A stretch of DNA of 16,890 nt from Pelagophyceae sp. CCMP2097 (lineage: Eukaryota > Sar > Pelagophyceae), in assembly GCA_026770575.1 (NCBI GenBank), contig MU657442.1:48215-65104 (forward strand), in the 5' to 3' direction. Below are positions 2,355 to 16,890 of this stretch, one piece after another. The notes below the pieces were generated by a model. The model did no database searches. It had not been told where the DNA came from and worked only from the letters and a program-made list of their open reading frames with translations. A program made the position numbers and the translations under genes. Numbering within the stretch: position 1 is the first letter of the stretch; every line of letters begins with the position of its first letter.

Positions 2355-3359
2355 GTCTGAATATTGTAAAGGACCCGGGCCTTCATTTAAAAACGCCCTC
2401 TGTCCACCTGGATGCCCGCGCCCCAGGGGGAGTCGTGCTCCGCACTCTCAGTCTGCTTTGTAGTCTCAACACACAACACTTCGACACTGGTAAGTAGTTG
2501 AAAGGCCCAACAACCAAGACACTTCATCAAATCTTCAACCACCCTTGAGCGAATGCCGCCCTTCAATTAGGTGAGGACGGTTTGAGCGACAGCAGGTCCG
2601 TGGCGGCGTCCGGCCTGGCCCATAGGGGTTTCCCGTGGCGTCTGTGCGAGTGCGCGGCGCGGGTGCACCCGAGGGCCACCGAGTTTGGAGAGGCGGGAGT
2701 CTCTGTGGTTTGAAATCGGTGATTTCCGGAGAAACGACGTCGGCGCTACGTACGTGGCCGGCCGCGCCGCGCTCCCGGCGCACCGCCGCCGGCGGCGTCG
2801 GAGCGGCGCCCGCCGGCCGCGGCCACGCGTGCCACGTCGCGGCGGCGGCGCGGCGGGCGGCGCACGAGGGGGTCACCGCGAGGCAGTTCCCTAGTTCAAA
2901 CTCAGAGGCGCCCACCATGCGACGGGGCCGCCGGGGATCGGGCCGGACGCCGCTCCCGCACGCGCCCGGGCGCGTCGGATTTCAAACGCCGCCATGTAGG
3001 GGGTGCTCTGCGCGCGCAGTGTGGGGAGGTCCGCTAGATCACCCCAGGGGAGTCGATCGGCCGGAGGGCGAAGTGAGGTAAGATCAAGCTGTGGGCCGCC
3101 CTACGGCGACGGCGGTCGCCGCTTGTCCATGCACAAAGTTGCCTCCTTTGAGACAAATGAGGAACCATGCGATTTCTTCAAAAACACGTGTGCACGAGTC
3201 TTCTCTGCGCGCCTGCGCGCCGCAGTCCATCACGGGGTATCCCAAGCCTTGGAGGGCGGTCTCGTGGTGGTCCCTCGGCACGGCACTCCCGACGCGCGTC
3301 GACGCATAGGTACGTGCGCGGAGCGCACGGCCCTCAGGAGAGAGGCGAGAGCGCACCAG

Positions 3360-3487
3360 GTGAGTGCACGCTCGCACCGCTGCTCGGCCCGAGACCTCGA
3401 GCCGCGGGCCTCGCTTGAGATGCTTCGGCGCGGGGACTTTCCCGGCGCGCTCGTCGGATGATTGCACGGGAACTTCTCGCGCCGTAG
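3360..3487 (+). other. Possible 5' leader intron of the giant gene
   Basis: CAG followed by GTGAGT at 3360-3365 is a full consensus splice donor 151 nt before the start codon. A candidate acceptor, a pyrimidine-rich TTCTCGCGCC followed by GTAG, ends at 3487. Splicing would leave a 23-nt leader before the ATG at 3511. Other consensus donors lie further up at 1140 (GTAAGA), 2490 (GTAAGT) and 3078 (GTAAGA), with a candidate acceptor at 3225 (GCCGCAG). No transcript evidence is available. Confidence 0.3.
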
Positions 3488-3510: not shown

Positions 3511-3576
3511 ATGAAGTTTGGCATGGCGAGCGTGGCGCTGCTGCTCCTGGCGTGCGCCGCGCCCGCGGTGGACGCG
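3511..3576 (+). other. Signal peptide (residues 1-22)
   Basis: The N terminus has a Lys at residue 2, a hydrophobic core (VALLLLACAAPAV, residues 8-20) and a small-residue cleavage context, VDA followed by QDC, which predicts cleavage after A22. This marks the protein for the secretory pathway. There is no obvious bipartite plastid-targeting (ASAFAP-like) motif after it, so export or cell-surface delivery is more likely than plastid import. Confidence 0.85.
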
Positions 3577-6500
3577 CAGGACTGCGCGGCGCTGACGAGC
3601 GTCGGCGCCACGTACTTTGACGCGGTTTCATCGTGCGGCGAATGCACGCAAAACACGCACTGCGGTGCGCCCCAGCCCCGCGACGTCGCCCCTCCGACGC
3701 GCGCGCCGCAGGTTTCTGCTTGTCGACGCTCGAGTGCGTCTCGGGCAACGTGGACGGCCCATCGGAGGTATACGATTGCCCGATGTGGCTCCACGACGCC
3801 GGCGAGTGCCCAGAGCTGCCGCGGTGCGGGGCGCACGACGAGTGCGACGGCTGCGTCGCCGGCTCGGACTGCGCCTGGTGCGGCTCGGCGAACAAGTGCC
3901 TCGACGTGGCGGCCATCTTCCAGGTGGACTGCGCGGCGGCCGTCTTCGAGCTGCCGTGCCCGTCGTCGCCCGTGGCGCAGAACCGCGTCGTGGGCAACCT
4001 GCTTGTGGAGCCGGACCCCGTCTTCGGCGGCGGCCAGTTCCGCACGCACGGCGCGTCGGCGGGCGGCGGGGCGTTTGAATTCGTCATCGACGAGGTTGAA
4101 ATCTCCATGGTCTCCGCGGGCCGCGTCCGAATCGCCGCCGGCGACGCGCACGCCGCCGCCGGCGTCGGCGGATCCGTCGACCTCCGCGCGGGCGCCGGCA
4201 CGAACCCACAGGGCGGCGCCGGCGGCGACGTCCGCATCGAGTCTGGCGCCGCAGCGGGCGTCGCGGCCGCGGGCGGCGCCGTTGGCGACGCGGGCGAGAT
4301 TTCCATCATCGGCGGCGGCAGCGTCGAGGGCCGCGGCGGCGGCGTGTGCCTCGAGGGTGGCGAGTCGTTCCAGGGCGGCGGCGGCGACATCTCCATCCTC
4401 GCCGGCGCCGGCTGGCTCGACGCGGGCGAAGTCTACGTTGGGACGGCAGACGCGCAGTTCACAGAGGCGGCTACGGGCGGCATCGAGATCACGACCGGCA
4501 CGTCCGTCTCGGGCGCGACGGGCGCCATCGTCATCGCGACGGGCTACTCGGTCAACGGCCAGGCCGGCGGCATCGACATCTCCGTCGGCCACTCTGGCTC
4601 GGGCGACGGCGGCTCGCTGTCCTTCTACGCCGGCGCGTCTTCGCACGAGGCGCTCGACGGCGGTGCCATCTCGCTGTCGTCGGGCGCGTCTGCGGCGAGC
4701 TCGGGCGCCGTGACGCTGGCGACGGCCGCCGCGGCGGGCGCGTCTGGCTGCGTCACCCTCGCGTCGGGCGCGTCCGCCGCAGGCGCCACAGGCGGAATCA
4801 CGCTGGCCACCGCCGACACGGCGGGCACCGGCGACGCCGGCGGCATCGAGGTCAGCGTCGGCCGGTCGGCGGCGTCGGGCGGCGACGTCGACGTCAACGC
4901 CGGCTCGTCGTTTGCGCTCGGCGGCACCGTCTCGCTCGCGGGCGGCGCGTCGTCGACGCAGGGCGGCGCCGTTGAGCTGCGCGGCGGCGACGTCTTGGCG
5001 TCGGCGGCGGGCGTCGGCGGCGACGTGGTTATCGAGGGCGGCGCGGCCGTCGACACGCGCGGCGGTGGCATCACGCTGCTCTCGGGCCACGCGGAGCTCG
5101 GGCCGAGCGGCGTCTGCCGCCTCGCCACGGCCAACGCCGGCGCCGACGGCGCGTCCGGCTCGCTCGCGCTCCGCACCGGCACGGCCAGCAAGGGCGCGTC
5201 CGGGTCCATCGACATCGTCAGCGGCGCCGCCCTCGGCGGCGCCGGCGGCGACGTCCGCGTCGCCGCGGGCGCATCCGGCACGGGCGCCGGCGGCGACCTG
5301 ACGCTCGAGGCCGGGTCGGCGGCGGGCGGCGCGGGCGGCGCGGCGACGCTCTCGGGCGGCGCGGGCGCCACGCGGTCCGGCGATGCCGTCGTCGAGACGA
5401 TGGACACGGCGGGCGCCTCGGGCGCCATCCGGATCCTCACGGGCGACTCCGCCGCAGCCGCCTCTGGCGCCATCGGCCTCCGCGCGGGCGCGTCGGCGAC
5501 GGCGCAGAGCGGCGGCATCAACCTCGTCGGCGGCGCCGGCGGCCCGGGCCCCGGCGGCGCCGTGTCCCTCACTGCGGGCGCGTCGACGTCGGCGTGCGCG
5601 GGCGGCTCCATCTTGCTGAGCGCGGGCGACGCGCCTTCGGGCGTCGGCGGTGGCATCGCCCTCTCTGGCGGCAAGACGGCCGACAGCGCGCTGGGCGGCA
5701 TGATCGAAATCGTCGGCGGCCACGCCTCTGCGTCCGCGGGCGGCGACGTCCGCGTCGCCGCCGGATCGTCCGAGGCGGGCAGAGGCGGCACCGTCGACCT
5801 CATGTCGGGCGTCGGCGCCACGTCGTCGGGCCCCATATCGCTCGCGTCGGCCAACGCCGGCTCGTTTGGCGCCTCTGGCGCGATTAACGTCCTCACGGGC
5901 ACGGCCGGTGCCGCCTGCTCCGGCGGCGTCGTGCTCGAGACGGGCAGCTCGTCGCAGGGCCGCGCGGGCGCCGTGCTCCTCGCGGTCGGAGTCAGCGGCT
6001 CGGGCGCGGGCGGCGGTGTCGGCCTCGTCGGCGGCGCGACGACTGCGACGTCGGCCGTGGGCGGCGCGGTGACGCTGCGCGCCGGCGAGGGCTCGTCGGC
6101 GGACGCGCGCAACGGCGGCGACGGCGGCGCGGTGACGATCCAGGGCGGTGCCGCGCTTGGCGGCGCGATCATCGACCAGGGCGGCTGCGTGACGCTGCGC
6201 GGCGGCTGCGCGGTGACGGGCACGGGCGGCTGCGTCGGCATCGCCTCAGGCCTTGGCGCCGCCGGCGCGTCGGGCTACGTCGCCATCGGCACGCCCGACT
6301 CGGGCGGCGACGGCGCGTCGGGCGCCATTTCGCTGCAGACGGGCTCATCGAACCGCGGCGCCTCGGGCGCCGTCACGCTCACCACGGGCCTCGCTGTCGA
6401 CGGCCAGGGCGGATCCATCGTCGTCGCCGGGGGCGAGGGCGACTGCTTCGACGGCGGCGACGTCTCCCTGACCGCCGGCGCGACATCGGCCATGGCGCGC

Positions 6501-9500
6501 AAGGGCGGCGCGGTGACGCTGGCCGGCGGCGTCGGTGCGTCTATCAACGCCAACGACGGCGGCGACGGCGGCGACGTCTTGCTCGCGGGCGGCGCCGCGC
6601 GCGGCACGAACATGAACGACAACGGCGGCGATGCTTCGATCGTCGGCGGCCAGTCGGTGGCCGGCTACGGCGGCCGCGTCCGCCTCTCTTCGGGCCTCTC
6701 GACGCGCGCCTCGAGCGGCGGCGTCCTCGTCGCCACGGGCAACTCGGGCGAGGCCGGCGTCTCCGGCGCCATTACCCTCGGGACGGGCACCTCGGCGCGA
6801 GGGCGGTCGGGCGCCATCGTCATCGCGACGGGCGACGCCACCTCGGGCCGCGGCGGCTACATCGCGCTCCAGGTGGGGTCCGGCGACTCGGGGGAGGGCG
6901 GCCAGGTCGAAATCGTCGCCGGCACGACGACGGACACGGAGACGGGCGGGCGCATCACGCTGCGCACGGGCTACTCGGCCGAGACGTCGAGCGGGCCCTG
7001 CCTCGTCAACACGCCCAACGCCGGCGCGCTGGGCGTCTCGGGCGAGATCTCTGTCACGACAGGCACGACGTCGCGGGGCAACTCCGGCTTCATCGCCCTC
7101 GACACGGGCGTCGCCTTCGACGGCCGCGGCGGCGACATTCGCGCGCGCGTCGGCACGGGCGAGACGGGCGACGGCGGCGACTTTTACGTCAACGCCGGCG
7201 AGACGACGGACAGGGAGTCGCAGGGCGGCAGCGTCGTCATTCAGGCCGGCGAGGGCTCGAACCCGCACCTGTTCGACGGCGGCGACGGCGGCGTGGTGCA
7301 GATCTTCGGCGGCGCCGGCAAGGGCGGCCTCGACGACAAGGGTGGCAACATCGAGATGGCCGGGGGCTACTCACGCAAGGGCCGCGGCGGCGCGTTCGTC
7401 GTGCGCACGGGCTACGGCGAGGATACGTCGTCGGGCATCATCGACCTTTCGACGGCGAACGGCGGCGAGAGCGGCGTCTCCGGCTCCATTGACTTCTCCA
7501 CGGGCACCACGTCGTTGGGCAACTCGGGCTACGTCAACATCGAGACGGGCGAGGCCTCGGGCGGCCGGTCGGGCTACGTCCACGTCCTCGTCGGCACGGG
7601 CAACTCGGGCGCCGGCGGCGACGTTGTCATCGTCGCGGGCAACACCAAGGCCGACGCCACGGGTGGCCTCATCTCCATCACGACGGGCTACTCGGCGCCG
7701 ACGACGTCCGGCACGTTCTCGCTCGACACGGCCAACGCCGGCGGGCCCTCGGGCGTCTCCGGGTCGATCCACTTCACCACGGGCACCACGTCGCGCGGCA
7801 ACTCGGGCATTATCTCGCTGGCGACAGGCGACGCCAACATCGGCTCGGGCGGCAACGCCGAGTTCCTCGTGGGTGTCGGCAACTCGGGCGACGGCGGGGA
7901 CATCGTCATGGCCGCCGGCGAGACCAAGGCCAAGGCGCGCGCAGGCGGCCTCGTCCTCATCTCCGCGGGCCACGGCTCGTCCAAGGACCGGGCCGACGGC
8001 GGCGACGGCGGCGCCATCCTGCTCTTCGGCGGCGAGGCCTCGGGCCAGAACCCCACCGACGACCTCGGCGGCGACATTGAGCTCGTCGCAGGCTACGCGG
8101 CGGCGGCCTCGGGCGGCAACCTGCACATGCAGTCCGGCGCGGGCGCGGCGTCGTCGTCGGGCAACATATGCATGCGGACAGTCAACGGCGCGGGCACGGC
8201 GCCCTACGGCGTCTCCGGGTCAATGACGCTGGAGACGGGGTCGGCGTCGCTGGGCAACTCGGGCTTCCTCAACCTGGCCACGGGCGCGGCGCTTTCCGGC
8301 GCCGGCGGCAACGTCTCCGTCCGCGTCGGCACGGGCGACTCGGGCGATGGCGGCAACGTCTACGTGGCCGCGGGCGAGACGACGGCCAAGGCGAGCGTCG
8401 GCGGCGACGTCCGCATCGACGGCGGCCACGGCTCGTCTGCGACCAGGGGCCAGGACGGCGGCGACGGCGGCGTCGTCTACGTCACGGGCGGGCGCGCCTC
8501 GGGGGGCTCAAAGGCGAACGACGTCGGCGGCGACGTCAAGTTTACGGGCGGCGCCGCGGCGACGGGGTCCGGCGGCAGCGTCGCCATTTCCACGGGCGCC
8601 GGCGCCGCCTCGAGCTCGGGCAGCATGACGGTGCGCACGGCCAACTCGGGCCCCGCGGGCGTCTCGGGGGGGATCACGTATAAGACGGGCACGGCGTCGC
8701 GGGGTGACTCGGGCCGCATGGCGCTGTCGACGGGCGACGCCGCCGACGGCCGGGCGGGCGACGTCAGCGTCGACGTCGGCGACTCGGGCGCCGGCGCCGG
8801 CGGCGACGTGCGCGTCCTCGCCGGGTCGACGTCCAAGGCCACGGGCACGACGGGCGGCTCCGTCTTCGTCTGCTCCGGGGCGTCGGCGCTGACCACGTCG
8901 GGCTCGGTGACGGTCAAGACGGTCAACTCGGGCACCGCCGGAGTGAGCGGCGCCATGCTGCTGCAGACGGGCGCCGCCAAGAGGGGCAACTCGGGCGCCA
9001 TCTCCATCGTCACGGGCGCGACGACGGCCGGCGGCGCGGGCGGCGCCATCACGCAGCGCGTCGGCAACGGCGTCTTCGGCGACGGCGGCGACGTGCGCAT
9101 CTTCGCCGGCGCCACGTCCGCCGTCGACGGCACCGGCGGCAAGGTCTCCATCGACGGAGGCGACGCGACGAACAGAAAGGGCGACAACGGCGGCGGCATC
9201 TTCTTTGCGGGCGGCGACTCGTCCGGCAACTCAGCGACGCTCGACGTCGGCGGCGATGTCCGGTTCGCCGGCGGCGACGCGCGCTGCGGCACCGGCGGGG
9301 CGTTCACCGTCATGACGGGCTTCGGCTGCACCTCGACGTCCGGCTTCGCCGTCGTCCGCACGGCCAACTCGGGCGCCTTCGGCGTGAGCGGGTCGATGCG
9401 CCTCGAGACGGGCACGACGTCGGCCGGCAGCTCCGGCTCCGTCGCCATCACGACGGGCGCGGCCGCGCTGGGCCGCGGCGGCAGGATCAGCGTCTTCGTC

Positions 9501-12500
9501 GGCGATGGCGACTCAGGCGTGGGCGGGGCCGTCGTGGTCAAGGCGGGCGACGTGCGAGGAGCGGCGGCGGCCGCGCGGTCCGGCGGCTCCGTCTCGATGC
9601 GGAGCGGCTACGCCGAGGACTCGTCGAGCGGCGAGGTCACCATCGTGACGGCCAACGCGGGCTTCGAGGGCGTCTCCGGCTCGCTGTCGCTGACGACGGG
9701 CGACGCGACCAAGGGTAACTCGGGCGCGATGACGCTGCAGACGGGCGCCGCGGTGACGGGCGAGGGCGGGACCATCGGCCTCCTCGTCGGCCTCGCCCGG
9801 TCCGGCCGCGGCGGCAACATCTGCGTCTCCGCCGGCGCGACGACGTCGGGCAAGACGGGCGGGGCCATCCTCGTCGAGAGCGGCAGGGGCACAGCGACGT
9901 CGTCGGGCGCCGTCACGCTGCAGACGCCCAACGCGGGCGCCGAGGGCCGGTCCGGCGAGGTGACGCTGGCGACGGGCACGTCGAGCAGCGGCTCGGGCAA
10001 GATCACGCTGGATACGGGCGACTCGACGGCGGCGTCCAGCGGGTCCATCATCGTGAGTGTCGGCGCGTCGGCGTCGGGCCGCAGCGGCTCCGTGCTCGTC
10101 ACGGGAGGCAACGCCGCGGGCGCCGCCTCGAAGGGCGGCGACGTCGCTATGGCCGCCGGGTCGTCGGGCACGGGCGGCGACGTCCTGATCGCCGCGGGCC
10201 AGTCGACGCCCGTGTCGTCGCAGCCGGGCGGCGACGTGCTCATCACTGCGGGCCCCGCCGACGCGGCGACGGGCGGCATGTTCTGCGTTGTCACCGGCAC
10301 GTCCAAGACGGGCGTCAGCGGCGCCGTGACCCTCACCTCTGCGGACTCGGCGGCCGACGGCCTCGGCTCGGGCGCCGTCGAGATCGGCTCGGGCCACGCC
10401 ATCGCCGGCGACACGGGCAAGCTGCTGCTCGAGACGGGCTCCGTCGACAGCGCCGCCGACGCCGGCGACATCGTCATGCTCGTCGGCACGGGCGCCTCGG
10501 GCAAGGGCGGCGACGTGCGCGTCTTCGCCGGCGACTCGCTCGATTCGGCGAGCGGCGGCGCCGTCACCATGGTCTCGGGCGAGTCGGGCAAGTCGACGAC
10601 GGGCTACGTCTCGCTCGCGACGGCCAACTCCGGGGCCGTCGGCGCGAGCGGCACCATCGCCATCTCCACGGGCGACTCGGCGGCGGCCAACACAGGCTCG
10701 GTCACCGTCTCGACGGGGTCGGCCAAGCTCGGCGCCTCGGGCGACGTCGTGCTCCTCGTCGGCACGGGCGGGTCCGGCGCGGGCGGCGCCGTACGCTTCG
10801 TCGCCGGCGCGATGACGAAGCCCGACGCCACGGGCGGCGCCGTCTCAGCGACAGGCGGCGCAGCCAAGGGCGCCAAGGGCGTCGGCGGCGGCATCGCGCT
10901 GACCGGCGGTGCCGCGGCCGGGGCGACTACGACGGCCGTCGGCGGCGGCGTCTGCGTCGCCGGCGGCGCGTCGGCGAGCGGCACGGGCGGCGCCGTCACC
11001 GTCGTCTCGGGCACGAGCGCGGCGTCGGACTCGGGCGCGGTAAGCGTCGCGACAGCCGCCGCGTCGGCCTCTGGCGGCGCGAGCGGCGGCTGCGCCGTCT
11101 CCACGGGCGACGCGTTTTCGGCGTCGAGCGGCAAGCTCGCGCTGGGCACAGGCAACGCCAACGACGGCCGGGCGGGTGCCGTATCGCTCGCCGCGGGCGA
11201 GAGCGACTCGGGCCGCGGCGGCAACGTCGCCATCACCGCGGGGAAGACGTCGGACACGACGGGCGGCAAGGTCGTCATGACGAGCGGCGAAAGCGCGGCG
11301 ACGTCGAGCGGCGCGGTCCTCGTCGCGACGGCGGCGGCAATGACCGCGGGCGTCAGTGGTGACCTGACGCTGAAGACGGGCACGGCGACGGGCGGCAACT
11401 CGGGGGACATTTTGCTGTCGACGGGCACGTCGTTCGGCGGCGCCGCGGGCAGCGTCACGCTCGTGACAGGTGCGTCTATGGGCCCGGCGGCCGTGGGCAC
11501 ACAGCTCTCCTTCGAGGCCGGCGGGTCCTCGACGATGACGGGCGGCTCGCTGTTCTTCGCGGGCGGCCGGTCGATGGCGACGACGTCCGGCGGCGTCACG
11601 CTGCGGTCCGTCAACGCGGGCACCCGGGGCGCGAGCGGCGACGTGCGATGCTTCACGGGCACGAGCCGCGGCGACCGCTCCGGCGCCGTCTCGCTCAGCA
11701 CGGGCCGCGCCAACGCGGGCCCGTCCGGAGGCATTGCCCTGGCCGTCGGCATCGCCGAGTCGAGCGCCGGCGGCAGCGTCACCATGACCGCGGGCTCGGC
11801 GACGAGCTCAGGCCCCTGCGCGCTCGGTGGCGGCGTCACGCTCGCCGCCGGCGCGAGTGCGCTGGCCAGCGGCGGCTCCGTCACTGTGGCCGCGGGCAAG
11901 GGCGCGACGTCGGGCGGCAGCGTCTCTGTCGCGGGCGGTTGCGGCAGCACGGGCGGCGGGGGGCAGGTCAACGTCTCGACGGCCTTTGGCGTCGTCGGTG
12001 GCTCGGGCGAGCTGCTGCTGCGGACGGGCACGGCGGCCGCGGGCGACTCGGGCCGCGTCCTCATCGCGACGGGCGCGGCGTCGCTCACCGCCGGCGGCAT
12101 CGAAGTCGCGGTCGGCCGGTCCAAGTCGGGCGCCGGCGGCGACGTCAAGCTCACGGCGGGGGCCGCGAGCCTGGACACGGGCGGCGCCGTGACGGTCGTT
12201 TCGGGCGCGTCGACGTTCTCGAGCGGTTGCGTCGAGCTCGCGACGGCGGCGGCGACCGGCTACGAGAGCGGCAGCATGTCCGTCAAGACGGGCGGCGGCA
12301 CGAAGACGGGCTCGCTGGAGCTCCGCACGGGCGACGCCGCCAACGACGCCGCCGGGACGATTGTGCTCCAGGCGGGGACGTCGTCGGCCGGGGCGGGCGG
12401 CGCGCTCAAGCTCCAGGCGGGCGACTCTTCGGCGAACGCCGGCGGCGCCGTCTCTGTGAAGAGCGGCGCGAGCACGTCGCTGGTGTCCGGGTCGGTGGCC

Positions 12501-15500
12501 GTGGCGACGGGCGACAGCGCGTCGTCGGGCCAGGGGTCCGGGGCGGTCGACGTCTCGACGGGCGACGCGTACTCTGGGCCGTCGGGCGACATCGTGCTGC
12601 AGACAGGCACGGCAAACGGCGGCGCCTCGGGCACGGTGACCGTCAAGGCGGAGCCGACGGCCGGCGCTGGCGGCTCGGTCCTTGTGGGCGCGGGCGCGTC
12701 GACGCTGGCGGCGGGCGGCGCCGTCGGTATCGCGGCGGGCAGCGGCGCGACGAAGGGCGGCTCGCTCACCCTCGTCGCCGGCGACGGCGAGATGGCGGCG
12801 GGCGGCGTCACCATCGCCGCGGGCTCGGGGGCGTCGGCGGCGGGCGGGTCCGTGTCCATCGCAACGGGCGCGGGCGTCACGAACTCGGGCAGCCTGTCCC
12901 TCGCGACGGCAAACGTCGCCGCGGCCGGGTCGAACTCGGGCGGCATCGCGCTGCGCACGGGCACGTCGAGCGAGGGGGCAACGGGCGGCTCGCTCTCCCT
13001 GCGCACGGGCACGGCGGCGCAAGGATTGGGCGGCTTCATTGACGTCGCCGTCGGCCAGTCGGCGTCGGGCCGCGGAGGCGACGTCTCGCTGACTGCCGGC
13101 GCGCTGATCATGGCCTTGGAGCCCGTCGAGGGCGAGGTCTGCGCCGGCGGCGCCATTATCCTCACGTCAGGCTCGAGCACGCAGGGCACGACGGGCTGCA
13201 TCTCGCTCGCGACGGCCGACGGCGCCGTGGTCTCGTCCGAGGCGAACATTGGCTCGGGCAATATCTCGCTCTCCACGGGCACGGCGCCCTTCGGCTCCGC
13301 CGGCAGCATCGCTGTCGCCGTCGGCGTCAGCATGAGCGGCAACGGTGCCGCGCTGACGCTCGAGGCCGGCAGCGCGCTGGCCGAGGGCTTTAACGGCGGC
13401 GCCATCGAGCTCCGCGCGGGCACGTCGGCGCGCTTCGGCGGCGCCATCTGCATCGCGTCGGGCGGCGGCGTCACGAGCGGCGGCATCAAGCTCGCGACGG
13501 CGAACGGCGGCGCAGGCGGCGCGAGCGGCTGCCTCTTCCTCACGACAGGCACGTCCAAAGTCGCCACCGGCGGCATCAGCCTCACGACGGGCGCCTCGGC
13601 GCTTGCCGCGGGCGGCATCCTCATCCGCGTCGGCAACGCCACGCAGAACGCCGGCGCCGACCTCGACCTCGCGGCGGGGCAGTCGGGCCTCATCACGGGC
13701 GGCGCGCTCTTCCTCTCGAGCGGCGCCTCGACGGCGGCCGGCTCGGGCGCCGTCGCCATCGCGACGCCCAACGCCGGCCCCGCCGGCAGCAGCGGCGCCA
13801 TCTCTCTCGCGACGGGCAAGTCGTCGGCCGGCTCGACGGGCAGCCTCACGCTCGGCACGGGTGCGACCGCCGCGGCCGCCGCGGGCACAGTGACCCTCGC
13901 CGCCGGCGCGGGCGCCTCGGGCGCGGGTGGGGGCATCGCGCTCACGGCCGGCGCGTCGACGGCGGTCGCGGGCGCGGGCGGCGCCGTGACCGTCGCCGCG
14001 GGCGCGTCGACGGCCGAAGCCGGCGGCGCGCTCACGCTGGCCGCGGGCGCGGGTGCGACGGGCGGCGGCGCGATCTCGCTTGTGAGCGGCGCGGCGGCGA
14101 CGGGCACGGGTGGCGCCGTGACCCTGGCGACGGGCGCGGCGGCGGCCGCGGGCGGCGCGCTGAGCCTCGCCACGGGCACGGCCGGGGCCGGCGCCTCGGG
14201 CGGCCTGACGTTGGCCACTGGCGCCGCGACGGGCGGCGCCGGCGGTTTGATTTCGTTCGCGGTCGGCTCGGGCGACACGGGCGTGGGCGGTTCTATCGCG
14301 CTGAGCGCCGGCTCGTCGACGGGGTCGGGCTTCGCCGGCGGCGGCGTCTCCATAGATGCCGGCGCGGGCGGCGACTCCGCAGCAGGCGGCAAAATCGCTC
14401 TGAGCACGGCGACGGGTGGCGCGGGCCCGAGTGGCGGCATCACGCTGAGCACGGGCGATTCGGCGTCAGCGGCCTCGGGCGCGCTCAGGCTCGCGACGGG
14501 CGCGGCACTGGCGACGGGCACGGCGGGCGCTTTTAGCGTCGTCGCCGGCGAGTCGACGCTGGGCACGGGCGGCAGCGTCGGCCTCTCGGCGGGCAGGTCG
14601 TTGGCGGCGGGCTGCGCGGGCGGCGCTGTGAGCCTGGCGGCGGGCGCGTCGGCGGCTGGCGTCGGCGGTGCCATCTCGCTGGCGACTGGCGACGGGGTCG
14701 CGGGGGGCAGCGGCGCGCTGACGTTCGCGACGGGCGCATCGGCCTTTGGCAACACGGGCGCCTTAACGCTGCAGACGGGCGTGGCGAGCTCGGGCGCGAG
14801 CGGGGCGCTCAGCATCGGCGCCGGCTCGACGGCGTCGGGTACGGGCGGCGCTGTGACGCTCCGCGGCGGCCTGTCGACGGGCGGGGCTGGCGGCTCCGTG
14901 GCGATCTCGGCCGGCGGCGGCGCGGCGACGCTGTCGTCGGGCGGCGAGGCGAAGATCACGCTCGCTGACAGCAACGTCGACATCGTCGGCGGGACCGCGG
15001 GCGACATCGCGCTCATCGTGCCCAAGGGCGTGGGCGCGGGCGGCACCATCGGCTTTGGCTTCACCGACGATGTGCCCTACGACGGCAGGGCCACCTTCGA
15101 CGTGCGCATCGTCAACGACGGCTCGTCGACGACGTTCATCTCGTCGGTGCCCGTGCAGGTCACGACGATCGACTACTCGTCGGACCGCCGCATCAAAAAG
15201 GACTTCGCCGATGTCGACACGGAAGACCTCCTCTTCCGCCTCAACGAGGTGCGCATGGTCTCGTACCAGTACTCGGACGCCTGGCGCAAGGTCCGCGAGA
15301 TTCCCGACGTCCGCGTCCGCGGCGTCATCGCGCAAGAGGTCTTCGAGATCTTCCCCGAGCACATTAAGATCCTGCCCAAGTACACGCTGCCCGACAAGAA
15401 CTTTTCCATCGACAACTTTTACCAGATAGACAAGCAGGGCCTCGCCCTCGACACCATCGGGGCGCTGCAGGCGCTCAGCGCGCGCTACGCCATCGGCCGC

Positions 15501-16890
15501 GCGGCGCCCGATGGGACCACGGGCGAGCTGTCCATCACCACCAAGGTGGGCGCGCGGACCGGCGGCATCACGATCCAGAGCGGCGACGCCGACGACGGCG
15601 CGAGCGGCGACGTCGTGCTGGAGACGGGCGCCTCGGCCACCGCGCGGTCGGGCGACATCGCGATTGCGGCGGGCGACGGCGCGACGGGCGCGGGGGACGT
15701 CGCCATCGCCGCTGGCAGCAGCAGCGATGGCCGCGGCGGATCCGTCAAGGTCGAAGCGGGCGACGGTGGAAACGGCGGCGCCATCCTGCTCGAGACGGCC
15801 GCGTGGGACCGCAAGGGCGACGACACGGACCGCTTCATCTCGCTGAAGACGGGCGTGTCGCAAGGCGGCGACAACGGCGTCAAGCTGGCCGTCGGCGATG
15901 CGACCACTGGCGGCGGCGCTGTCGTCATCCAGTCGGGCGAGAGCCGCGACGGCGACGGCGGCGGCGTCTCCCTCGCCTCTGGAGCTGGCGATTCTAGCGG
16001 GGGCGACGTCCAGGTCGTCGCGGGCAGTGGCCGCGCCGGCGGATCGCTCGAATTGAGCGCGGGGCAAGGCACCGTCGAAGGTGGCTCGGCGCGCCTCAGT
16101 AGCGGCGCGAGCGCCTCGGGCTCGAGTGGCACCGTGACGATCGCGAGCGAAGACGCCTCCTCGAGCGGCGACGTCGCCATCTCGACCGGCGCGAGCAACG
16201 TCGGCGCCTCGGGCAGCATTGCCATCGCAACCGGCGCCGCGGCTACCGGTGCAGCCGGCGAGATCACGCTGCGCGGTGGTGCGGGCGCCGATGACGGCGG
16301 GTCTATCACTGTCGCCGCAGGCCTCGCCAAAGGTGTCAGCAGCACCGGTGGCGAGATTCAACTCACTGCCGGCGATGGCGCCATTGGTGGCACCCTCACG
16401 CTCTCGAGCGGCGCAGGTTCCGCCGGAGCGAGCGGAGACGTCGTGCTGTTGGCGGGAAGCTCTGATACAGACACCGCTGGCTCTATTCAGTTCCAAGCTG
16501 GCAGTGGGAGGATCGGTGGCGACGTCTCGCTCGAAGCCGGAATTGGCAAAGCTGAAGATGGAGGCAACGTGCAAATTGCAAGCGGCGCAAGCGATTCGGG
16601 TAAGACGGGCTCAATCAGCATCGAATCTGCAAGCTCGACCAGTAGCGCGAGTCGCGAAAGCGGCCAAGTCAGCCTCACCTCCGGCTCATCGGACAAGAAC
16701 AGCGGCAGGATTATCGTCGAAAGTGGACCGTCAGCGGAAGAGGCCGGCGACATCACGCTCCGCGTCGGCGAAAGCACTCGGCAGAATGGCGGACAATTGT
16801 CATTATCCGCGGGAGATTCAGCAAGCGATCAAGGTGGCGACACCGAAATCAAGTCTGGAGGCGGCGTGGCGGGCGGCTCCATCAACCTGG
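3511..16890 (+). CDS. Giant secreted beta-solenoid repeat protein with internal S74 self-cleaving chaperone domain (3' partial)
   Basis: The coding sequence is join(3511..3664, 3712..>16890), which gives 4444 complete residues with no stop before the window ends. Domains in order are a signal peptide (1-22), a twin PSI-like Cys head (25-134), solenoid repeats (about 159-3814), a linker, an S74 domain (about 3872-3978), and more solenoid (about 3991-4444 and beyond). The start is the ATG at 3511 because it immediately precedes a textbook signal peptide and has A at -3; the upstream frame gives only Arg-rich sequence. Exon 2 is read in the frame whose codons start at multiples of 3, and no stop occurs in that frame from 3462 onward. 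The repeat pattern (SG/GG, alternating hydrophobics, then TG/AG/SG) continues in this one frame for more than 13 kb, whereas other frames give compositional noise. I infer a trimeric extracellular or cell-surface fibre; its ligand or role cannot be read from the sequence. No name is assigned. The open frame is very secure and the function is inferred. Confidence 0.93.
3583..3959 (+). other. Twin PSI-like cysteine-rich head (residues 25-134)
   Basis: Two Cys clusters share exactly the same spacing, C-x2-C-x5-C-x2-C-x5-C. The first is C42, C45, C51, C54, C60 and the second is C96, C99, C105, C108, C114. The cores are HCGFC and DCAWC, which resemble the CxWC core of plexin-semaphorin-integrin (PSI) domains. 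Other Cys at 25, 74, 84, 90, 125 and 134 could complete the disulfides. The duplicated spacing appears only if the 47-nt intron is removed, because the intron splits the first motif between C51 and F53. PSI-type modules are extracellular disulfide-bonded spacers in known proteins. Here they probably cap or anchor the N-terminal end of the solenoid. The exact family assignment is tentative. Confidence 0.7.
3665..3711 (+). other. 47-nt GT-AG intron
   Basis: The intron begins GTGCGC at 3665 and ends CCGCAG at 3711, with a C-rich tract before the acceptor. It lies after the first base of codon 52 (G plus GT gives Gly). Its length (47, which is 2 modulo 3) exactly connects the signal-peptide frame to the frame that stays open to the window end. 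The joined sequence restores the HCGFC motif that matches DCAWC in the second Cys cluster. A sequencing frameshift is the alternative, but the consensus ends and the restored motif favour a true intron. Confidence 0.85.
6060..6230 (+). repeat. Asp/Asn-rich three-coil cassette, copy A
   Basis: This is a 57-residue cassette of three coils, two of them with long loops carrying NGGDGG and IIDQGG. It begins 207 nt after the landmark N codon at 5853 and turns a six-coil unit into a nine-coil unit. It contains two Cys (GGC before VTL and GGC before AVT), which is unusual for the repeat region. Confidence 0.8.
6504..6674 (+). repeat. Asp/Asn-rich three-coil cassette, copy B
   Basis: This 57-residue cassette carries NANDGGDGGDV and NMNDNGGDA loops. 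It begins 207 nt after the landmark at 6297, exactly as in copy A, and has the same length. Confidence 0.8.
7224..7391 (+). repeat. Asp/Asn-rich three-coil cassette, copy C
   Basis: This 56-residue cassette carries LFDGGDGG and LDDKGGN loops. It begins 207 nt after the landmark at 7017 and exactly 720 nt after the start of copy B. Confidence 0.8.
7944..8117 (+). repeat. Asp/Asn-rich three-coil cassette, copy D
   Basis: This 58-residue cassette carries RADGGDGG and PTDDLGGD loops. It begins 210 nt after the landmark at 7734 and exactly 720 nt after the start of copy C. Confidence 0.8.
8400..8576 (+). repeat. Asp/Asn-rich three-coil cassette, copy E
   Basis: This 59-residue cassette carries GQDGGDGG and ANDVGGD loops. 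It begins 216 nt after the landmark at 8184. It follows copy D by only 456 nt, so two nine-coil units stand next to each other here without a six-coil unit between them. Confidence 0.8.
9135..9299 (+). repeat. Asp/Asn-rich three-coil cassette, copy F (diverged)
   Basis: This is the last and most diverged cassette (55 residues), carrying KGDNGGG and TLDVGGD loops. It begins 210 nt after the landmark at 8925. After it, units no longer contain a recognisable DGGDGG loop. Confidence 0.75.
13800..14300 (+). repeat. Low-complexity Ala/Gly-rich part of the solenoid
   Basis: Coils here use almost only G, A, T, S, V and L (for example GGALSLATGTAGAGA) and the long polar loops seen upstream are missing. 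A hand count of 14101-14160 gives 54 of 60 bases G or C. The reading frame is still open and the coil period of 14-16 residues is kept, so it is coding. The uniformity suggests a more recent expansion or stronger homogenisation than in the 5-10 kb part. Confidence 0.7.
14998..15167 (+). other. Non-repetitive linker before the S74 domain (residues about 3814-3870)
   Basis: The solenoid pattern stops after the segment DIVGGTAGDIALIVPKG and is replaced by GFGFTDDVPYDGRATFDVRI, then VNDGSSTTFISSVPVQVTTI. This is a normal-complexity beta-rich stretch with charged residues. In phage tailspikes and related fibres a comparable short connector joins the fibre shaft to the S74 domain. The parallel is structural reasoning, not a detected family match. 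Confidence 0.6.
15168..15491 (+). other. Peptidase S74 / intramolecular chaperone auto-processing domain
   Basis: Residues about 3872-3978 match the S74 (ICA) signature: DYSSDRRIKKDF at the start, VSYQYSDAW, RGVIAQEVFEIFPE, NFYQIDKQG, then an amphipathic helix ending in LQALSARYA. In characterised members (phage endosialidase tailspikes and the eukaryotic MYRF factor) this domain trimerises and then cleaves itself in cis with a Ser-Lys dyad five residues apart in an SDxRxK-type motif. Here S3875 (codon at 15180) and K3880 (codon at 15195) have exactly that spacing, so the domain looks active. Its length of about 107 residues is normal for the family. It is unusual that repeats follow it. Cleavage would separate an N-terminal arm of about 3850 residues from an S74-plus-solenoid C-terminal part. 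Confidence 0.88.
15528..16890 (+). repeat. C-terminal beta-solenoid arm, incomplete (residues about 3991-4444 and beyond)
   Basis: The same coil pattern resumes directly after the S74 domain (GGITIQSGDADDGA, SGDIAIAAGDGATGA, SGSIAIATGAAATGA) and continues to the window edge. The coils carry more Asp, Glu, Gln, Asn and Lys than the 10-15 kb part. One loop near 15795-15860 contains AAWDRKGDDTDRF, with a rare Trp. Codon use becomes less GC-biased toward the end: a hand count of 16801-16860 gives 32 of 60 G+C. The arm is open at the window end, so its length and C terminus are unknown. Confidence 0.85.

Follow-up and report, generated by a model that had tools for sequence, protein, structure and literature searches.

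S74 domains act as terminal chaperones of viral fibers and, in MYRF, as a switch. The MYRF chain is cut between P586 and S587, and S587A and K592A each abolish cutting, as described in PMC8326128; that the cut before the Ser depends on the trimer is described there and in PMC3742443. The fibers of polinton-like viruses (PLVs) of protists, of up to 3.9 k aa, also carry S74, often at the C terminus, and belong to genomes of 14-40 kb according to PMC12220804. Here we describe a gene of Pelagophyceae sp. CCMP2097 in a stretch of 16,890 nucleotides (contig MU657442.1 of assembly GCA_026770575.1, positions 48,215 to 65,104, forward strand), referred to below as the window, whose end coincides with the end of its contig. 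The predicted product is a protein of at least 9060 residues, apparently secreted and built largely of a 15-residue repeat, in which S74 domains with an intact Ser-Lys dyad lie in the interior of the chain. The contig that holds the window is called C263; C613, C157, C70, C39 and C275 are other contigs of the assembly.

Within the window, the gene opens with an ATG at 3511 on the plus strand and runs for 4444 codons to the last base, with no stop and no N. The remaining five frames of the exon 2 DNA contain 18 to 154 stops each, and in the eight 1500-base stretches sampled, 0.91-0.96 of third codon positions are G or C. The features of the gene, in window positions, are as follows.

3511..3664, plus strand: exon 1, with the start codon, the signal peptide (about residues 1-22) and the first part of the Cys-rich head, from the translation and from the C157 paralogue with its matching exon 1
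3634..3959, plus strand: Cys-rich head (residues 42-134) made up of two PSI-like modules and split by the intron; Pfam PSI below cut-off
3665..3711, plus strand: predicted intron of 47 nucleotides, GT..AG, joining the signal-peptide frame to the long frame
3712..16890, plus strand: exon 2, open to the contig end, with 0 stops in 4393 codons
4116..15041, plus strand: first repeat array, about 230 units
15042..15518, plus strand: repeat-free module (residues 3829-3987), comprising a pre-S74 stalk and a complete S74/ICA domain with its C-terminal helix
15180..15365, plus strand: match to Pfam PF13884, Peptidase_S74 (45.6 bits against a cut-off of 22; E 8.5e-12)
15180 and 15195, plus strand: codons of the predicted catalytic dyad, Ser3875 and Lys3880, in the register of the 7dc3 alignment
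15519..16890, plus strand: beginning of the second repeat array, of which the window contains 28 units
16871..16890, plus strand: contig-end overlap, the last 20 bases of C263 being the first 20 of C613, in frame

Peptidase_S74 is the single domain above cut-off in a Pfam scan of exon 2. The S74 region can be aligned by sequence to the structure of the MYRF ICA domain (7dc3; E 1.2e-9) and to a T5-type L-shaped fiber (8hqz; E 0.0015). In the 7dc3 alignment, Lys3880 faces the Lys of the structure and Ser3875, five residues away, faces an Ala; this Ala is S587A, the uncleavable MYRF used for the crystals as described in PMC8326128. By these alignments the S74/ICA domain is genuine and its Ser-Lys dyad is intact, and the cut site is expected between Ser3874 and Ser3875. 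The chain runs on for 569 residues past Ser3875 within the window, about 457 of them beyond the S74 module, so the domain is internal and not C-terminal. A monomer model of the module points with modest confidence to an S74 fold with a C-terminal helix: it is fair only over module residues 111-190 (block means of 60-79), with a helix at 185-202, and Foldseek returned 7dc3 (E 8e-7), 3gw6 (E 2e-4) and 3gud (E 0.012) in addition to many phage S74 fibers in BFVD. Foldseek matches that reach far past the S74 core have a high root-mean-square deviation and carry little meaning. An earlier reading of the bare sequence (the original prediction) had proposed a single giant frame of more than 4444 residues with an internal S74 and two fragments that would meet near residue 3875. 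The frame and the internal S74 are borne out: no in-frame stop interrupts 3712-16890 and the S74 profile match is clear.

As the window ends where its contig ends, the protein is bigger than that reading could tell. The gene continues on C613. The two contig ends are the only places in the 66-Mb assembly where the 20-mer of the overlap is found, and the chance that two random cuts share 20 bases is about 4e-7 when estimated from the 20-mer content of these genes. C613 has 13,869 bases and is a single open frame of 4622 codons, 92% repeats, with an S74 at Ser277. Joined across the overlap, the two contigs give a stop-free frame of 9060 codons, still open, that would encode 821 kDa. Its S74 domains lie at Ser3875 and Ser4715, and its 550 repeat units divide into 231 before the first serine, 43 between the two and 276 after the second, from which at least 4346 residues follow. 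No contig overlaps the far end of C613, whose end 20-mer occurs once in the genome. The joined chain has an isoelectric point of 4.5 in its first part and of 9.0 after the second S74 (likewise 4.7 and 9.1 for C157); in steps of 500 residues, the basic stretch falls mostly in the last 2000 residues of C613. This polarity was not seen in the relatives P0001 and P0003 (see below), both incomplete.

The repeat unit, modeled on residues 186-3780 of the window protein, follows a consensus of 15 residues, (G/S)-G-A-V-T-L-A-T-G-A-S-A-A-G-x, in which position 2 is Gly in 97% of the model and positions 4 and 6 are aliphatic. There are 261 units of 13-15 residues in the 4444 residues, covering 87% of the chain; five shuffled controls gave 36-47. 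By place, 230 units precede the S74 module, 28 follow it (past residue 4000) and 3 lie at its edges. The original prediction, with about 240 coils before the S74 and at least 30 after it, was right to place repeats on both sides. In the final 150 of the joined chain's 550 units, likeness recurs at every sixth unit, with 56% identity at lag 6 versus 24-30% at lags 1-5; units 400-550, in C613, thereby form a six-unit super-repeat of about 90 residues, strongest toward the C-terminal end. No Pfam family scored above cut-off on the repeat over exon 2, and pieces of 267 and 667 aa found no match among PHROG and PDB sequences; for this reason the repeat may be a new fold.

The window protein begins with an apparent signal peptide, MKFGMASVALLLLACAAPAVDA, which can be read straight from the sequence as had been claimed, and the C157 paralogue has a similar one ahead of an intron at a nearby place. 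The 47-nt intron of the window gene is an apparent one: splicing across 3665-3711 yields HC|GFCLST, and the paralogue has this stretch as GCGFCLST. The head had been called PSI-like. Its two Cys-rich modules are present, but neither the window head (19.2 bits) nor that of C157 (19.4 bits) reaches the PSI (PF01437) cut-off of 23.1 bits, and a PSI search of the genome gave no match at E 0.001, with controls giving none either; PSI-like is thus all that the head can be called. It occurs at two places in the genome (C263 and C157), which are 43% identical to each other, and no relative was found at E 0.01 among the 7992 candidates that shared the most words with the 800-aa query and had lengths near it. 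A hydropathy window detected no transmembrane-like stretch beyond the signal peptide in readable C263 and C613, and no transmembrane helix downstream of their S74 domains, the C terminus lying outside the assembled sequence; two C157 windows are marginally above the threshold (1.83 and 1.85 versus 1.8). Taking the signal peptide together with the Cys-rich head and with the absence of any other membrane-like stretch in C263 and C613, we infer that the window protein is secreted.

The window gene is one of two such giant loci found in the genome. Two heads and four S74 domains of the giant-family type were found in the assembly, and the repeat matches listed fall without exception on C263, C157 or C613 (39 of 39 and 62 of 62, both counts being lower bounds). 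The second locus, on the minus strand of C157, has a head, a repeat array and an S74, then 1325 N, and beyond them another S74 followed by a long array that reaches the contig edge. Its repeat array is 42% identical to that of the window over 4550 columns (2810 bits; the other C157 piece reaches 1457 bits at best). The first C157 S74 is 54% identical to the window S74 and the second is 52% identical to the C613 S74, with which it also pairs in a tree of 16 S74 modules (support 80). In the same tree a support of 91 separates the giant family from C70, C39, the two domains of P0002 and one MYRF-like protein; the tree has no phage or PLV row, and its within-family backbone is poorly resolved (supports of 36-45). 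The start of C613 matches C157 where expected, directly ahead of the second S74 (33% over 258 columns). Several registers of C613 against the second C157 piece are nearly equal (2469, 2355 and 2311 bits), the alignment register being blurred because the sequences are repeats. In one 247-codon stretch compared between the C263 gene and C157, the differences at the three codon positions number 69, 55 and 138, a pattern as under selection on the protein. An extension past C157 by its end 20-mer was rejected; that 20-mer also occurs inside C613, as a repeat match and not at a contig end. The earlier observation is confirmed as real but understates the case: the chain is longer, there is a second S74, and there is a second locus.

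Protein searches with the giant and with shorter query lengths identified P0001 (EukProt), P0003 and P0004 (NCBI) and P0005 (JGI); all four have the giant-family repeat on both sides of an internal S74. Parts of P0001, especially the tail, look like gene-model errors. P0003 has three S74 domains. In the third of these (residue 1687) and in the second of P0004 (residue 769) the catalytic Ser is replaced by Ala, with the Lys and the rest kept; these nodes are probably clamps that do not cut. Among the 11 giant-family S74 domains examined, the dyad Ser is present in 9 and the Lys in all, and the dyad is kept in all four of this genome, in P0001 and in P0005. More distant matches are P0002 and the MYRF-like P0006, which has PF05224. 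P0002 (JGI, 2629 aa) has two S74 domains and PF13385 (laminin-type) and is possibly a giant-virus fiber; its source label, "chaperonin cofactor prefoldin", is unsupported by its precomputed domains.

Likeness to phage proteins is, by these comparisons, confined to the S74 domain. The domain matches the tail fiber PHROG 1980 (E 1e-18) and, in tblastn, 8 phage records with E values no higher than 1e-3; a repeat piece gave no phage match in tblastn with the low-complexity filter on. Scans with the S74 alignment returned 29 pattern matches in IMG/VR and 18 in GTDB, none of which was confirmed, and the repeat alignment is too variable for genome scanning.

We propose that the window gene encodes a secreted, trimeric giant fiber whose S74 nodes trimerize the chains and cut them into stacked segments, and we put the probability of this reading at about 0.6. 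Each chain would enter the secretory pathway and would consist of a disulfide-rich head followed mainly by Gly-rich beta repeats. The nodes would work as S74 does in MYRF and in phage fibers: at each of them three chains would join via the C-terminal helix of the domain, and the S74 trimer would register and fold the repeat stalk upstream. After trimer formation, the Ser-Lys dyad would cut just before Ser3875 and Ser4715. Because the S74 is internal, the cut would part two long fiber pieces instead of freeing a small chaperone. Two cuts would yield three trimeric segments, perhaps stacked, with masses of about 346 kDa for the first, about 80 kDa for the second and 393 kDa or more for the third; a chaperone node would stand at the head of both the second and the third. 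Trimerization, self-cleavage and a surface location, drawn from what the S74 family does, are to be read as putative properties of the window protein. Judging from the natural Ser-to-Ala nodes, a node may keep its function as a clamp after it has lost the ability to cut. More tentatively, and with some doubt on our part, the gene may represent a self-segmenting eukaryotic fiber in general, in which several S74 nodes on one array clamp and cut in turn, so that one gene would yield stacked trimeric segments, acidic in the first part and basic in the last, and in which some nodes of relatives are now uncut clamps.

Several observations weigh against the proposed fiber. The Ala nodes of P0003 and P0004 mean that cutting is not needed at every node. 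Neither locus includes its C terminus, where a membrane anchor or some other end domain would escape notice. On C157, the 1325 N between the S74 domains prevent the frames on the two sides from being linked, and the tail of C263 (4000-4444) finds its best match in the first C157 array (2232-2759; 31% over 543 columns) and not after the first S74. The structure models also give limited help. The 250-residue S74 module, modeled as a monomer, has a mean pLDDT (predicted local distance difference test) of 46.5, with 41 of 250 residues at 70-90, and is uninformative on the active site because the dyad sits in a low-confidence part just ahead of the fair stretch. A monomer model of a 267-aa repeat piece with 16 aligned repeats has a pLDDT of 68 and hardly any strands, and Foldseek matched it to nothing in the PDB; for these reasons we can only infer a beta fold for the 15-residue Gly-rich repeat. 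Modeling of a repeat segment and of the S74 had been suggested in the original prediction; it gave no fold match for the former and a match to 7dc3 for the latter, and the term solenoid, a fair guess from a 15-residue repeat, finds no backing in the nearly strandless model.

The same Ala nodes, in which the rest of the domain is kept, would be expected if the S74 domains were trimerization clamps only, with cutting absent or incidental and the fiber chain left whole, and it also fits such an arrangement that a cut at Ser4715 would free at least 4346 residues of chain. Conservation of the Ser and Lys in 9 of the 11 family S74 domains, to which the four of this genome belong together with the ones in P0001 and P0005, makes this alternative unlikely in our view, if still deserving of attention.

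It is considerably less probable that the gene is the fiber of an integrated virus, whether polinton-like or giant, and not a host gene. The S74 fibers of up to 3.9 k aa that PLVs of protists encode, as described in PMC12220804, bring this origin to mind, as do an upstream open reading frame on C263 with GIY-YIG and weak viral-helicase matches (one flanking frame was scanned, and the upstream 10 kb is partly N) and the distant relative P0002, which has two S74 domains and may be viral. However, the readable gene, at about 27 kb, is by itself the size of a whole PLV (14-40 kb in PMC12220804), and it has a signal peptide, an apparent intron and internal S74 domains. Moreover, no relative was confirmed in IMG/VR (0 of 29 pattern matches), and the giant-family S74 domains split from those of the MYRF-like protein, P0002, C70 and C39 (the tree described above, with support of 91 and no phage or PLV row).

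The closest solved relative being the MYRF ICA domain, one might also imagine a released factor, with the S74 cut freeing one part as a signal. This we regard as very improbable for a protein with a secretory head, no DNA-binding domain among the exon 2 Pfam matches and no transmembrane-like stretch besides the signal peptide in readable C263 and C613, the two C157 windows being just over threshold. That the long frame is an artefact of GC-rich repeats and not a single protein is scarcely credible: owing to its high GC, the same DNA does contain open antisense frames as long as 938 codons, but the signal peptide, S74 and head are conserved across two loci, the 15-residue regularity is far above that of shuffles, the codon-position pattern is that of protein selection, and four other database entries hold relatives.

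Besides the giants, the genome has three further S74 frames, at C70:52983-56299 (minus), C39:345644-348538 (minus) and C275 about 51800-52505. They resemble the giants in having repeats and an S74 with a Ser-Lys dyad; they differ in that the S74 is near the frame end (with a helical tail in C70 and C275), the repeat is a different one and the frames are far shorter. The C70 and C39 frames have EGF-like stretches, above the Pfam cut-off in C39 and below it in C70, together with different short repeats and no DNA-binding domain. C70 and C275 have near-identical S74 domains with diverging tails; the C275 frame is mostly N and was assessed only from its S74 end. On C263, at 38216-40858 (minus), lies an 881-codon frame, L009, with a GIY-YIG match of 33 bits and a weak viral-helicase match. 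It looks like a mobile element, and a frame resembling it was seen by eye on C275, which also carries one of the other S74 genes.

Upstream of the window gene there is one further feature.

2626..3003, plus strand: upstream block, about 80% identical to its C157 counterpart (80% in a blastn alignment of 380 columns); a candidate promoter or 5' leader

Two long copies of the block exist in the genome, this one and C157:27603-27955 (minus); two further matches extend over only 86 and 37 bases. It is more conserved between the two giant genes than are the proteins that they encode, and is perhaps a shared promoter or leader, in which case the window gene and its C157 paralogue may be expressed together. 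From block to ATG there are 507 bases in C263 versus about 65 in C157, and because of this difference the C263 gene may hold a 5' leader intron; sites noted by eye upstream of the window ATG are GAG/GTAAGA-like near 3077 and TAG/G near 3487.

More than one internal S74 per chain, in a secreted protein no shorter than 9060 residues, would depart from the role of a terminal chaperone. It raises the question of how a cell folds and registers very long trimeric fibers, to which internal self-cutting nodes would be one answer. The Ser-to-Ala nodes of relatives are in this respect a natural experiment, and the 15-residue repeat is possibly useful as a material.

Each of the known systems shares part of this design. 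Like MYRF, the window protein is a eukaryotic protein with a mid-chain S74/ICA domain, the dyad in register and the same fold by Foldseek (7dc3); unlike MYRF, it starts with a signal peptide and contains repeats by the hundred and two or more S74 domains, and the NDT80-type DNA-binding domain that MYRF has upstream of its ICA domain has no Pfam match in exon 2. In the phage endosialidase, T5-type and other tail fibers (3gw6, PHROG 1980), the S74 is downstream of the fiber, as it is here, but there it is a removable C terminus, whereas in the window protein the repeat chain continues past it. The PLV fibers are likewise large, modular and S74-bearing, and are encoded by protist-borne elements; as far as PMC12220804 describes them, they differ in having a single S74 and laminin, collagen or adenovirus-fiber modules in place of the window repeat. 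The literature searched, as far as the sources go, treats the S74 proteins of MYRF, phage, extracellular contractile injection systems and PLVs, and none of these has several internal S74 domains in a secreted repeat protein, in keeping with the earlier remark that no described system matches. As far as these searches reach, then, the S74 domain is a known one, and the architecture and the repeat into which it is built are new.

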